The notes under the pieces are model-generated. The model did no database searches, had not been told where the DNA came from, and saw only the letters and a program-made list of their open reading frames with translations. Below, in pieces: positions 9,032 to 13,484 of a stretch of DNA of 35,479 nucleotides (positions within the stretch are counted from its first letter, which is position 1; each line of letters begins with the position of its first letter). Source of the DNA: an uncultured Bacteroidales bacterium (GTDB lineage Bacteria; Bacteroidota; Bacteroidia; Bacteroidales; Bacteroidaceae); NCBI GenBank assembly GCA_902785075.1, contig CACZXN010000021.1, positions 1 to 35,479 of the forward strand, in the 5' to 3' direction. The translations under genes and the position numbers were made by a program.

Positions 9032-9376
9032 ATGGATGCAGAAAAAGTAAATTTGTTTTTGTCAACAAAAGGTGAAAAATTCCCAGCAGATGCGCTTCCA
9101 ATGATTAGAGAGCGTTTGGAAAATCTTCCAGCAGATCGTGAAATGGCAGTTTCAGCAATGGAGGTAAAAGACCCAACAACAGCCCTTTTGCTGTCGTTTC
9201 TGGTGTTCTTTGGCTTTAGTGGTGTAGATCGTATTTTCATTGGTGATATCGGTTTGGGTATTGCAAAATTCTTGACAGGTGGAGGATGTGGCATCTGGGC
9301 TATCATCGACTTCTTCCTGATTATGGATGCTACGAAGAAAAAGAACTTTGAGAAATTCATGCAGACAATCGCATAA
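9032..9376 (+). CDS. TM2 domain membrane protein
   Basis: 114 aa. The N-terminal half (1-48) is soluble and charged. It is followed by the TM2 signature: helix 1 (TALLLSFLVFFGFSG), the G-x-DR-x(3)-G turn (GVDRIFIGDIG), a short amphipathic link ending in TGGGCGIW, and helix 2 (AIIDFFLIMDA). TM2 proteins are small bitopic-hairpin inner-membrane proteins without a settled biochemical role in bacteria. The stop is only 3 bp before the ATPase start, so it is the first gene of a four-gene unit and may tether the other products to the membrane; this last point is inference. Confidence 0.9.
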   Translation: MDAEKVNLFLSTKGEKFPADALPMIRERLENLPADREMAVSAMEVKDPTTALLLSFLVFFGFSGVDRIFIGDIGLGIAKFLTGGGCGIWAIIDFFLIMDATKKKNFEKFMQTIA

Positions 9377-9379
9377 CAA

Positions 9380-10207
9380 ATGAAACAAGCAGAATACATC
9401 CAAAGCATTGAGATCAAGGCACTGTGGAAGGGAGGCAAACACATAAAGTGGGAACTGAACCCTACGGTGAACATCCTGAGTGGTATCAACGGGGTGGGAA
9501 AGAGCACCATTATCAATCACTCTGCCAAGATGCTGAAACTCATCGACAGTGGTGAGTTCCAGTCGGGTGAAGTGATGGAGGGTGTCATCATAAAACTATT
9601 CCCAGAAGATGCAACGAGTATCAAATTCGATATCATCCGTTCGTTCGACCGTCCGCTTCTTAATAGTAATCTGCTTGAAAAACTTGCTGATTCAAGGGTA
9701 AAGACAGAACTCGACTGGCAAATCTACAAGCTGCAGAAGCGGTTCTTGGACTATCAGGTAAACATAGGCAACCAAATCATTGAACTCCTAACCAGTGGAG
9801 ATCCTGAAGACCAAATGAAGGCCGCACTGGTATCATCTCCGAAGATGAAGTTCCAGAACATCATGGATGAGTTGTTTAAGGATACCAACAAAACCATTGA
9901 CCGTAAGAGCAACGAGATTCAGTTTTCTCAAAATGGAGAGGTGCTCACACCTTATCAGTTGTCTTCTGGCGAGAAACAGATGCTGGTCATCATGCTGACC
10001 GTGCTTGTGGAAAACAATGAACACTATGCCCTGTTGATGGATGAACCTGAAATCAGTCTCCATATAGAATGGCAGAAAGGTTTGCTCAATCTCATCCGTG
10101 AACTTAACCCTAATGTGCAGATCATCCTTTCAACCCATTCACCTGCCCTCATTATGGACGGGTGGATGGATATTGTGACTGAAGTGGAAGATGTGACGGT
10201 GAAGTAA
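9380..10207 (+). CDS. Compact SMC/RecF-like AAA ATPase, AriA-like partner of DUF4435
   Basis: 275 aa, an ABC-type ATPase head with little insertion. Visible motifs: Walker A SGINGVGKST (residues 34-43, K41), ABC signature LSSGEKQ (194-200), Walker B ALLMDEPE (D221-E222) and H-loop STHSP (H253). The order and spacing fit the AAA_15/AAA_21 group found in OLD-like and PARIS systems, where the ATPase forms a scaffold and sensor. Two bases separate its stop from the DUF4435 gene. I see no long coiled coil, and the protein is short for its class. The ATPase fold is sure; a role in defence is inferred from its partner. A conserved housekeeping role in nucleic-acid metabolism is the alternative. Confidence 0.88.
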   Translation: MKQAEYIQSIEIKALWKGGKHIKWELNPTVNILSGINGVGKSTIINHSAKMLKLIDSGEFQSGEVMEGVIIKLFPEDATSIKFDIIRSFDRPLLNSNLLEKLADSRVKTELDWQIYKLQKRFLDYQVNIGNQIIELLTSGDPEDQMKAALVSSPKMKFQNIMDELFKDTNKTIDRKSNEIQFSQNGEVLTPYQLSSGEKQMLVIMLTVLVENNEHYALLMDEPEISLHIEWQKGLLNLIRELNPNVQIILSTHSPALIMDGWMDIVTEVEDVTVK

Positions 10208-10209
10208 AC

Positions 10210-11211
10210 ATGCCCAAGCGATTAGTAGATAATGTCAATTCGCGCTACTTTGAGGCAGCTAACCACATGCGGCCAAAGTGGAAGAAGCATAAAGTCATCG
10301 TATATGTAGAAAGTTACGATGACATATTCTTTTGGCGCGATGTGTTGGCAGAGTTCGAAACGGACGAATTGGGTTTTGAAATTGTTCTTCCTTCACGTTC
10401 TAATCTCAGTAGAGGCAAGAAGTCTGCGATTACCAATAATCTGGGCAAAGGGCTTGGTACAAGCATGATTGCCTGTGTGGATGCCGACCTCGATTATCTG
10501 CTACAGGATAGTACCTCAACCAGTCGTGAAATCAACAACAACCCCTTTATCGTCCACACCTACGTTTACGCAATAGAGAACTATCAGTGTTATGCTGAAA
10601 GTCTGCATAACGTATGTGTGATGGCTACACTGAACGATAAGAAGGTGTTCGACTTCGTTGCTTATCTTTCTGCCTATTCGCGTACCATCTACGATCTCTT
10701 CGTATGGGCTATGTGGCTCTATCGGAACAATCGTGCCAGCATTATGCCTCTTACCACTTTGTGCAATATAGCGACGATTCATAAAGTTAATATCTTCAAT
10801 CCCGAGGAAGGGTTGGAACATTTGCGTCATAAGGTTAATCAGAAAATAGCCTGGTTACAGAAAGAGGTGCCCGAAGCGAAAGGTAAGCTGCAAGCTTTGA
10901 AAGAGGATTTGGAGAGGTTAGGACTGACTCCAGACAATGTATATCTCTTTATGCAAGGACATCACATCATGGACAACATTGTGATGGATGTGGTGAATCC
11001 TGTCTGTACGATTCTGCGAAGGGCTCGTGAAAAAGAAATTAAACAACATGCAGCTCATGCTCAGCAGATGGATAACGAACTCTCGTGTTACCAGCATAGT
11101 CAGGCTGCAGTAGAGCAGATGATTCGACGAAATACCGACTTTAAATCTTCTCCGCAATATCATCAAATGCGTCAGCGGATTTTGAGCGTGATTGAAAAAA
11201 TAAATGTGTAA
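10210..11211 (+). CDS. DUF4435 (TOPRIM-like) protein, AriB-like
   Basis: 333 aa. The N-terminal third looks like a TOPRIM fold: a beta strand ending in the conserved acid, VIVYVESYDD (E34), then IACVDADLDYLL with D91, D93 and D95, the DxD metal-binding motif. In PARIS systems the DUF4435 protein AriB is the effector nuclease, kept silent by the ATPase AriA. The middle (about 120-200) is rich in Tyr, Trp and aromatic residues (NYQCYAES, FVWAMWLYRNN). The C-terminal part is helical and charged, with coiled-coil potential near 205-235 and 275-330. No signal peptide or membrane span. The possible catalytic acids are intact, so activity is plausible but not shown. Confidence 0.85.
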   Translation: MPKRLVDNVNSRYFEAANHMRPKWKKHKVIVYVESYDDIFFWRDVLAEFETDELGFEIVLPSRSNLSRGKKSAITNNLGKGLGTSMIACVDADLDYLLQDSTSTSREINNNPFIVHTYVYAIENYQCYAESLHNVCVMATLNDKKVFDFVAYLSAYSRTIYDLFVWAMWLYRNNRASIMPLTTLCNIATIHKVNIFNPEEGLEHLRHKVNQKIAWLQKEVPEAKGKLQALKEDLERLGLTPDNVYLFMQGHHIMDNIVMDVVNPVCTILRRAREKEIKQHAAHAQQMDNELSCYQHSQAAVEQMIRRNTDFKSSPQYHQMRQRILSVIEKINV

Positions 11212-11217
11212 TCTCCT

Positions 11218-11802
11218 ATGCTCGAAATCCAAGACACTCTCGTCTCTCTAGATCTTTTCTCACAGCATTTTTGTTGCGACCTCGCTGTGTGTAAGGGATG
11301 TTGTTGTGTTGAAGGTGATGCAGGGGCGCCTGTAGAAGAGGACGAAATTGCAGAGATAGAGGAAGCAATGGAAGTCGTTTGGGATGAACTCACTCCAGAG
11401 GCTCGTGATGTCATTCATCAACAAGGAGTGGTATATGCCGACCCTTCGGGCGAACTGGTTACCAGTATAGTTAATAATCGGGATTGTGTGTTTGCTAACC
11501 ACGATGCAGATGGAACTTGTTTCTGTGTACTCGACCGAGCCTATCGGGATGGTCGTACTAAGTTCCAGAAACCCATCTCCTGTCACCTCTATCCCGTTCG
11601 CTTGAAGAACATCGCAGGTACCGTAGGAGTGAATTACGATAGATGGGACATCTGCCGATGTGGGGTAGAGCTAGGATGTAAACTCTCTTTGCCTCTCTAT
11701 CGATTCCTCAAGGAGCCTCTCATCCGCAGATTCGGTAAGTCTTGGTGGGATGAATGCGACCTTGCTTACAATGAACTGAAGAAGGCAGGCTATTTGGATT
11801 AA
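11218..11802 (+). CDS. DUF3109 family Cys-rich protein
   Basis: 194 aa. Cysteines cluster at C19, C20, C25, C28, C29 and C30 (HFCCDLAVCKGCCC), then GTCFC, PISCHLYPVR, and DICRCGVELGC. This pattern is that of DUF3109, related to the YkgJ-type proteins thought to bind zinc or an iron-sulphur cluster. It has no signal peptide. It follows the DUF4435 gene by 6 bp and is the last gene before a terminator. The substrate or partner is unknown. The metal-binding idea follows from the cysteines only. Confidence 0.87.
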   Translation: MLEIQDTLVSLDLFSQHFCCDLAVCKGCCCVEGDAGAPVEEDEIAEIEEAMEVVWDELTPEARDVIHQQGVVYADPSGELVTSIVNNRDCVFANHDADGTCFCVLDRAYRDGRTKFQKPISCHLYPVRLKNIAGTVGVNYDRWDICRCGVELGCKLSLPLYRFLKEPLIRRFGKSWWDECDLAYNELKKAGYLD

Positions 11803-11870: not shown

Positions 11871-13484
11871 TTAGAGCTTTGGACCAGCAGCAACAAGTGC
11901 TTTACCTGCTGCGTTGGTAGTATATTTGTCGAAGTTCTTGATGAAACGACCAGCAAGATCCTTAGCTTTCTCTTCCCAAGTCTTAGGATCTGCGTAAGTG
12001 TCGCGAGGATCGAGGATTGCTGGGTTTACGTTTGGCAGAGATGTTGGTACTTCGAAGTCGAAGAATGGAATCTTCTTTGTTTCAGCCTTGAGGATTGAAC
12101 CGTCGAGGATTGCATCGATAATACCACGAGTATCAGGAATAGAGATACGCTTGCCTGTTCCGTTCCAACCAGTGTTTACGAGGTATGCCTTAGCACCAGA
12201 CTTCTGCATCTTCTTTACGAGTTCCTCCGCATATTTAGTTGGGTGAAGCTCAAGGAATGCCTGGCCGAAGCAAGCAGAGAATGTAGGAGTTGGTTCAGTG
12301 ATACCACGCTCTGTTCCTGCCAACTTAGCAGTGAAACCAGAGAGGAAGTAGTACTGAGTCTGCTCTGGAGTAAGGATAGATACTGGAGGCAGAACTCCGA
12401 ATGCGTCAGCAGAAAGGAAGATTACGTTCTTTGCAGCAGGACCTGCGCTCTTACCGGCAACCTTCTTTACGATGTTCTTGATGTGGTCGATTGGGTAGCT
12501 TACACGAGTGTTCTCAGTTACGCTCTTATCAGCAAAGTCAATCTTGCCATCCTTATCTACTGTTACGTTCTCAAGAAGAGCGTTGCGCTTAATAGCACCG
12601 TAGATGTCAGGCTCATTCTCCTTAGAGAGGTTGATCACCTTTGCGTAGCAACCACCTTCGAGGTTGAATACACCTTCGTCATCCCATCCGTGCTCATCGT
12701 CACCAATGAGCAGACGCTTTGGATCTGTAGAAAGAGTAGTCTTACCTGTACCAGAGAGACCGAAGAAGATAGCTGTGTTCTTACCTTCCATATCTGTGTT
12801 AGCAGAGCAGTGCATAGATGCGATGCCCTGAAGTGGAAGGTAATAGTTCTGCATTGAGAACATACCCTTCTTCATCTCACCACCATACCAAGTGTTGATG
12901 ATAACCTGTTCGCGGCTTGTTGTGTTGAATGCAACACAAGTATCTGAATTGAGGCCGAGCTCTTTGTAGTTCTCAACCTTAGCCTTTGATGCGTTGAAGA
13001 TAACGAAGTTTGGCTCAAAAGTAGCGAGTTCAGCTTCTGTTGGCTGGATGAACATGTTCTTAATGAAGTGTGCCTGCCATGCTACTTCTACAATGAAACG
13101 TACTGCAAGACGAGTTGCTTCGTTTGCTCCACAGAATGCGTCAACTACATAGAGCTGCTTGTTTGAAAGCTCCTTGATAGCGATGTCTTTAACCTGTGCC
13201 CAAACAGCTTCTGTCATTGGGTGGTTGTCGTTCTTGTAACCTTCAGTGGTCCACCAAACCTTATCGTGGCTCTGAGCATCGTCTACGATATATTTGTCCT
13301 TAGGTGAACGACCTGTGAAGACACCTGTCATCACGTTTACTGCACCAAGTTCAGTTTCCTGACCTACCTCATAACCAGTAAGAGAAGGGTCAACTTCTGC
13401 CTTGTAAAGATCCTCGAAAGAAGGATTGTGAGCAATCACTGTTGAACCAGTGATGCCGTACTTTGTTAAGTCTAATGCTGCCAT
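11871..13484 (-). CDS. pckA: Phosphoenolpyruvate carboxykinase (ATP)
   Basis: Interconverts oxaloacetate + ATP and PEP + CO2 + ADP. In succinate-producing Bacteroidales it usually runs in the carboxylating direction to fix CO2 and make ATP. 537 aa, typical length. The phosphate-binding loop is [11 protein letters not shown] with K248-T249. The metal-binding kinase-2 motif is [10 protein letters not shown], followed by [22 protein letters not shown] (substrate arginine) lies near residue 58. Codons look optimised, as expected for a highly expressed gene. A TAACTTTG box lies about 100 bp upstream. Confidence 0.98.

Follow-up and report, generated by a model that had tools for sequence, protein, structure and literature searches.

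A PARIS-type ATPase-TOPRIM gene pair is an almost universal, inherited part of the genomes of a family of gut bacteria

Introduction

PARIS has been placed among the OLD systems as their class 4 in the accessible parts of two papers (PMC10568477; PMC12796447). In PARIS the ATPase AriA binds and silences AriB until a trigger frees the latter, upon which AriB dimerises and nicks tRNA, and translation stops, as described in the available sections of the studies concerned (PMC11455837; PMC12409363). In the complex, six AriA bind up to three AriB, which are thereby kept inactive (PMC11455837). The AriB active site reportedly resembles that of RNase M5, a TOPRIM nuclease of rRNA maturation, as far as the accessible text of one of these studies goes (PMC12409363). 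For the search of PARIS in genomes, profile thresholds of 32 bits for AAA_15, 27 bits for AAA_21, and 27 bits for DUF4435 are given in the portion at hand of another paper (PMC9122126). A further member of the OLD family, the ATPase-nickase Cran1, is a core archaeal protein that is conserved in the Sulfolobales, serves the progression of the cell cycle, and apparently has no role in antiviral defence, according to the extracts available from its description (PMC12796447).

This paper describes two adjacent genes, encoding an ABC/SMC-like ATPase and a DUF4435 protein, in a stretch of 35,479 nucleotides from an uncultured Bacteroidales bacterium (hereafter the window), as well as their counterparts in other genomes of the same GTDB family and beyond. 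To our knowledge, no fixed or non-defence PARIS is known, and a search of openly licensed papers for core PARIS in this family retrieved none. The pair was compared with PARIS at the level of profiles, predicted folds, and active-site residues, and its distribution, phylogeny, neighbourhood, and selection were determined across the family. Moreover, the accessory copies of DUF4435 genes that are encountered in some of the same genomes were read alongside the core pair.

Materials and methods

The distribution of the pair was determined in a draw of 199 genomes belonging to the GTDB family of the window, all of which were at least 90% complete except the window's own genome. For alignment, 85 loci were used, comprising all 25 family members of a draw of relatives (window included) and 60 loci chosen to span genera, the latter being picked among the DUF4435 matches listed and not from all 192 matching genomes. 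Trees of AriA and AriB were built from these 85 rows, representing 20 genera; the genera g26, g28, g33, and g38 are part of the genome counts and absent from the trees. A distant pair (locus L050, genome G023) was kept in the 85-row counts and trees, and the variability profile was calculated without L050 and L037. Neighbouring genes were clustered for 80 loci, after removal of L001, L018, L021, L023, and L024 for their short flanks. Trees of core and accessory copies were constructed without fused and long-AriA copies, the AriA tree also without L256 and L260, and with L050 set apart from the core rows. A profile of the helical arm of AriA was built from core rows. The structures of AriA and AriB were predicted as single chains.

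Results

Layout of the locus

The ATPase and DUF4435 genes of the window are 2 bp apart and form a tight same-strand run with a TM2-domain gene in front and a DUF3109 gene behind (Table 1); the gene boundaries and the gap given for the pair in an earlier, sequence-only reading of the window were correct. The TM2 gene is perhaps in one transcript with the pair. It was linked to the pair in 10 of the 80 compared loci, all belonging to the window's genus (g1), and the DUF3109 gene in 13 of them, 12 from the window's genus and 1 from g39. The TM2 protein is fast-evolving, its copies in eight relatives being 55-93% identical to that of the window. A fucosidase-type gene is located upstream of the TM2/AriA/AriB run, and the convergent downstream gene (positions 11871-13484) is, judging by its sequence, presumably pckA. 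A promoter scan yielded 4 candidates, compared to 5.9 in shuffled sequences, and a search of the window for tRNA genes found none. The nearest named records of the DUF4435 protein were MAGs titled Bacteroidales, Bacteroidaceae, and Prevotellaceae, with identities of 92%, 89%, and 72%, respectively. Core AriB was also encountered in MAG records titled Roseburia sp. (L160) and Clostridium sp. (L188), titles that look wrong.

Table 1. Positions in the window of the gene pair, its motifs, and the adjoining genes.
Feature	Positions	Strand	Details
TM2-domain membrane protein gene	9032..9376	+	PF05154, 4.5e-13; 3 bp upstream of AriA
Core AriA-type ABC/SMC-like ATPase gene	9380..10207	+	275 aa
Walker A GINGVGKST, residues 35-43	9482..9508	+	G35, N37, G38, G40, K41 each in 85/85 loci
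Helical arm of core AriA, residues ~108-140 (best conserved to ~135)	9701..9799	+	predicted helix 110-138
ABC signature LSSGEKQ, residues 194-200	9959..9979	+	L194, S195, G197, E198 in 85/85 loci
Walker B and EPEISLHIEWQ segment, residues 216-233	10025..10078	+	D221, E222, H228, W231 in 85/85 loci
H-loop H253	10136..10138	+	85/85 loci
Core AriB-type DUF4435 TOPRIM protein gene, presumed RNase	10210..11211	+	333 aa
TOPRIM E34	10309..10311	+	85/85 loci; 6/6 other aligned DUF4435 proteins
TOPRIM D91-x-D93	10480..10488	+	85/85 loci; 6/6 other aligned DUF4435 proteins
DUF3109 gene	11218..11802	+	PF11307, 6e-73; 6 bp downstream of AriB

Both proteins belong to the PARIS families

The window ATPase matched the Pfam families AAA_21 (1.5e-17, 65.1 bits) and AAA_15 (5.1e-16, 59.7 bits) and the PADLOC AriA model (1.1e-54), and its partner matched Pfam DUF4435 (1.9e-45, 155.9 bits) and PADLOC AriB (4.5e-56); in view of these E-values, the family assignment is not a chance match. 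All three Pfam scores lie above the published PARIS thresholds. Moreover, the PADLOC AriA model PDLC04164 matched all 45 sequences in the AriA alignment, and the PtuA profile scored lower than AriA with the window ATPase, which does not support an assignment to PtuA/Septu. For both proteins the closest solved fold was that of their PARIS counterpart, AriA and AriB, respectively. Taken together, profile, fold, active site, and operon bear out the proposal of the sequence-only reading that the pair is a PARIS relative, including the profile searches that it had recommended.

The ATPase motifs are intact: the full set of Walker A, signature, Walker B, and H-loop described earlier is present, and K41, G197, E198, D221, E222, and H253 are invariant in all 85 aligned loci. 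In the alignment, AriA of the Escherichia coli PARIS carries EPEISLHIDWQ where the window protein has EPEISLHIEWQ. The suggestion that the ATPase is much smaller than usual did not hold, since the PADLOC AriA model of 253 positions spans it and, among 18 extra copies that were read in the family, 12 encode an AriA with a length of 239-308 aa. Compact AriAs are common, and the idea of an unusually small ATPase was rejected.

The TOPRIM site of the DUF4435 protein is likewise intact, and the residues named for it earlier, E34 and D91-x-D93, were correctly numbered and are invariant. The residues E34, D91, D93, and E123 are present in each of six other DUF4435 proteins that were aligned, two of which are from enterobacterial plasmids, and G250-H251 in four of these six. 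With VIA-align, residues 26..327 of the predicted single chain of the window AriB were aligned to residues 18..307 of the solved E. coli AriB. Sequence searches with the window protein, profile A2, and two plasmid AriBs gave no match to the solved AriB, and a Foldseek search with AriB returned nothing significant. Because VIA-align alone displayed the match to the solved protein, the presumed correspondence of E34 to E26 of E. coli AriB is read from the register of the aligned range and not from a residue-level alignment. A search for residues special to core AriB gave no clear candidates, as C89, C127, and C266 are shared with the accessory copy L029 and with L025.

The pair is near-universal in the family

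A DUF4435 gene was found in 192 of the 199 family genomes, representing 22 of 22 genera, and a matching AriA (E<=1e-40) was also present in 192 of the 199. In the draw of relatives, DUF4435 was detected in 28 of 41 genomes, including 25 of 25 members of the window's family. In a draw of 392 genomes from the phylum it was found in 21, 16 of which are outside the family, and with a looser cut-off of 1e-15 the AriA profile matched 35 of 295 genomes from the order, 5 of these in the family. As an accessory control we took Abi_2, an abortive-infection family, which was present in 101 of the same 199 genomes, with some copies broken. AriA is located directly upstream of the DUF4435 gene in all 85 aligned loci, at a distance of -23 to 357 bp, and the linkage of the two genes is therefore constant. 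The patchy, accessory distribution that is usual for PARIS was not found.

Among 50,697 phage records no match was detected. Eleven plasmid records had a match, only two of them at an identity of about 49%; of these two, the record that was read has the chromosomal gene order. In this record (L236, NZ_OY725943.1), titled Bacteroides finegoldii 'plasmid 41', the pair is embedded in the same series of genes as on the g3 chromosomes, i.e., DUF1573, meaB, DMT transporter, AAA, DUF4435, and mechanosensitive channel, and the record is probably a chromosome fragment.

The pair can be lost

Both genes were absent from six of the 199 family genomes (G076, G120, G129, G146, G172, and G202), of which G076 is a MAG split into 320 contigs, so that a gap may be the cause there. 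In G196, AriA ends 241 bp from a contig end, so that absence of the DUF4435 gene is not sure, and the pair in G023 (L050) is a distant one, with identities of 27% and 33%. Four of the genomes that lack the pair belong to g3 (G120, G129, G146, and G202), and in these the EamA and MscS genes are spaced by about 5.05 kb. A run of aconitase, isocitrate dehydrogenase, and citrate synthase genes lies between them in G129 and G202 (L273 and L275), Pfam having been consulted for the genes of G129, and a citrate synthase gene is found at the corresponding place in G120 and G146. Replacement of the pair by another defence system in g3 was considered and rejected, the TCA run being there instead in the two gaps that were read (G129 and G202). 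Among 24 pair-carrying g3 genomes searched, 14 had a citrate synthase match, which was located elsewhere in each of the 14. G172, from another genus, contains the EamA gene without an adjoining pair. The g3 gaps and the six genomes without both genes establish that the pair can be lost; it is dispensable, and such loss fits a defence gene equally.

Phylogeny, neighbours, and selection

The AriA and AriB trees follow the genera, with 20 changes of genus label versus a minimum of 19 and a mean of 62.5 after shuffling, and the pair has thus descended vertically. The window's genus g1 has 3 changes in the AriA tree and 2 in the AriB tree, g6 has 2 in both, g30 has 2 in AriA, and g40 has 2 in AriB. 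An odd g1 row, L037 (contig C34 of G014, an 8.7-kb MAG contig), is placed inside g6 in the AriB tree and probably represents a binning error. In the trees with accessory copies, 31 core rows are united in a single clade that excludes these copies, with support values of 99 (AriB) and 95 (AriA); several outer branches of these trees are long, and their order is unsure.

The genes surrounding the pair are household genes, though not at one fixed place. An EamA transporter gene is its neighbour in 27 of the 80 loci and in nine genera, and dxs, TrkA, TrkH, Mur-ligase/alanine racemase, GSCFA, MscS, and helicase genes are other recurrent neighbours. Between genera, AriA is about as conserved as several of these neighbours, with identities of 62% vs 54% for EamA (305 pairs), 60% vs 64% for TrkA (46 pairs), and 62% vs 62% for Mur/Alr (36 pairs); MeaB, a further neighbour, is clearly better conserved (AriA 70% vs MeaB 81%, 8 pairs). 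AriB, with 49-61% identity between genera, is less conserved than AriA in every comparison. Both genes are under strong purifying selection. Since dN/dS values against the window were mostly saturated, close same-genus pairs were used. Of 301 such pairs, the 14 in which dS was not saturated gave a median dN/dS of 0.050 for AriA and 0.047 for AriB.

These results strongly support the hint in the sequence-only reading that the system may be a resident one, being near-universal, vertical, and located beside housekeeping genes. That reading had also reasoned that its proposal would be refuted by a pair found at the same place in all related genomes under strong purifying selection and without a phage phenotype. 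Selection is indeed strong and almost every genome has the pair, but the neighbours differ between genera, and the place is therefore not the same; this partial agreement tells against a mobile defence gene and not against fixed defence.

A conserved helical arm in core AriA

Core AriA contains a predicted helical arm (Table 1), the columns of which are filled in 81 of the 85 loci, including L050, which scores 5.7 bits on the arm profile. The mean column entropy of the arm is 0.8-1.1 bits (to residue ~135), similar to the value for the C-terminal motif region, and is well below the 2.1-2.5 bits of the neighbouring stretches 46-75 and 136-150. The arm profile scored 88-92 bits in two armed core AriAs and 15-16 bits in L021 and L023. 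In 22 accessory and outgroup AriAs that were scored the arm was not detected, the values being at most 4.8 bits; the L257 row of the accessory set is a restriction gene and was not counted. In L021, L023, L024, and L119 these columns are empty or incompletely filled. The four AriAs have a length of 227-246 aa, and the adjoining AriB is of normal length. A conserved arm in the presumed sensor would be unexpected after an arms race with one phage protein.

Accessory DUF4435 copies in the same genomes

DUF4435 matches beyond the first were found in 24 of the 199 family genomes, and the extra match is distant: the scores in these genomes are 144-206 bits for core copies and 23-78 bits for the 25 extra matches, which include one below the DUF4435 family cut-off (G205) and one with a stop (G075). 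Besides the copies with a compact AriA mentioned above, the 18 that were read comprise three with a long AriA (456-460 aa), two that look like fusions, and one cut by a contig start. The compact accessory pair L269 (G184) is inserted in a BREX operon, with BrxC and PglX on either side, and the fused copy L257 adjoins a type I restriction gene. L259 (G178) and L260 (G059) lie beside a gene of DUF4133, a conjugative-element family, and a ParA-like ATPase gene, as verified with Pfam for L259, and L268 shares the ParA side with them. The AriB sequences of L259 and L260 are identical although the genomes belong to different genera (g30 and g9), and a recent transfer is likely. With the PADLOC AriA and AriB models, the accessory copy L029 (G011) scores 349 and 388 bits, versus 184 and 118 bits for the core pair of the window.

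Discussion

The new fact that emerges from these data is the distribution, in that a PARIS-type pair is an almost universal, inherited part of the genomes of a family of gut bacteria. The locus is probably best described as a compact AriA-AriB module (PARIS-type, OLD class 4) whose fixation dates from early in the history of the family, with vertical inheritance as a core pair ever since. In this family the switch would be either a permanent immune sensor or a device that was given another job. If it is immune, abundant gut bacteria possess innate immunity of a fixed kind; if not, the pair illustrates how a suicide switch becomes physiology. The published PARIS rule, in the part of the paper at our disposal, counts the core pair as PARIS (PMC9122126), and PARIS counts in Bacteroides, Phocaeicola, and Prevotella relatives may therefore mix the core pair with accessory systems.

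By analogy with PARIS, in which the residues of known importance are the same as those retained here, the ATPase would bind ATP, assemble, and hold the TOPRIM protein inactive, and a signal that alters the ATPase would release the TOPRIM protein, which could then dimerise and cut RNA. The RNA would most likely be host tRNA, the substrate in PARIS, so that translation would stop. Since the arm and the ATPase change about as fast as the household genes around them, the signal or docking partner is expected to be stable, and such stability would make a signal from the host, or one of stress or infection in general, likelier than one fast-evolving phage anti-restriction protein. We tentatively propose, as a possibility short of an even chance, that a PARIS module was domesticated once near the base of the family, with an arm that reads a host signal and a TOPRIM nuclease that controls translation in a core switch for stress or growth arrest, and that accessory PARIS still come and go.

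The pair could also be PARIS in the strict sense, i.e., an abortive-infection system that is set off by phage upon sensing an anti-restriction or similar phage protein and was merely fixed in the family. The published profile definition, the fold and active site shared with PARIS, and the joint absence of both genes from six genomes agree with this, but near-universality, vertical descent, a dN/dS of about 0.05, and household neighbours set the pair apart from the accessory copies, and of the two partners it is the ATPase, presumably the sensor, that is better conserved; we regard strict PARIS as rather unlikely. A different explanation holds that the pair has become a housekeeping RNA- or DNA-processing enzyme from which the toxin-guard role is gone. 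Core status, the slow evolution of AriA, and the conserved arm point in that direction, as do the precedent of Cran1 (PMC12796447) and the reported resemblance of the AriB site to RNase M5 (PMC12409363), both as given in the accessible text. However, six genomes have neither gene, and both partners are kept together with their active sites, which a stand-alone processing enzyme would not need, and full domestication of this kind seems rather unlikely, to the same degree as strict PARIS.

A recently acquired mobile defence module is ruled out for practical purposes by the presence in 192 of 199 genomes, the trees that follow genera, and the household neighbours. Accessory relatives do look mobile, with an identical AriB in g30 and g9 next to conjugative-type genes, but the core pair has no match in the phage records, and the two plasmid matches of about 49% identity include, in the one read, a chromosomal gene order.

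The core pair differs to various degrees from the systems described. The partner of PtuA, the ATPase of Septu and retron effectors, is an HNH nuclease, whereas that of the window ATPase is a DUF4435 TOPRIM protein; the PtuA profile scores are lower. Cran1 is similar in combining an OLD-type ATPase with TOPRIM as a conserved chromosomal gene of one clade, but is a single fused archaeal protein that was reported to be not deletable in the sections available to us, whereas the window pair is absent from six genomes (PMC12796447). The accessory compact PARIS of the same family (PDLC04164/PDLC04165, e.g., L029) shares with the core pair a compact AriA adjoining AriB and the same TOPRIM residues, and differs in its placement apart from the core clade, in that the arm was not detected, in its patchy occurrence, and in the BREX or conjugative-type surroundings of some copies. 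With PARIS itself the core pair has in common two adjacent genes, an AriA with EPEISLHIxWQ, a DUF4435 TOPRIM protein with E and D-x-D, and the closest solved folds; it differs in an ATPase of 275 aa versus 464 aa in the solved E. coli AriA, in its conserved helical arm, and in being core, vertical, and chromosomal in one family.
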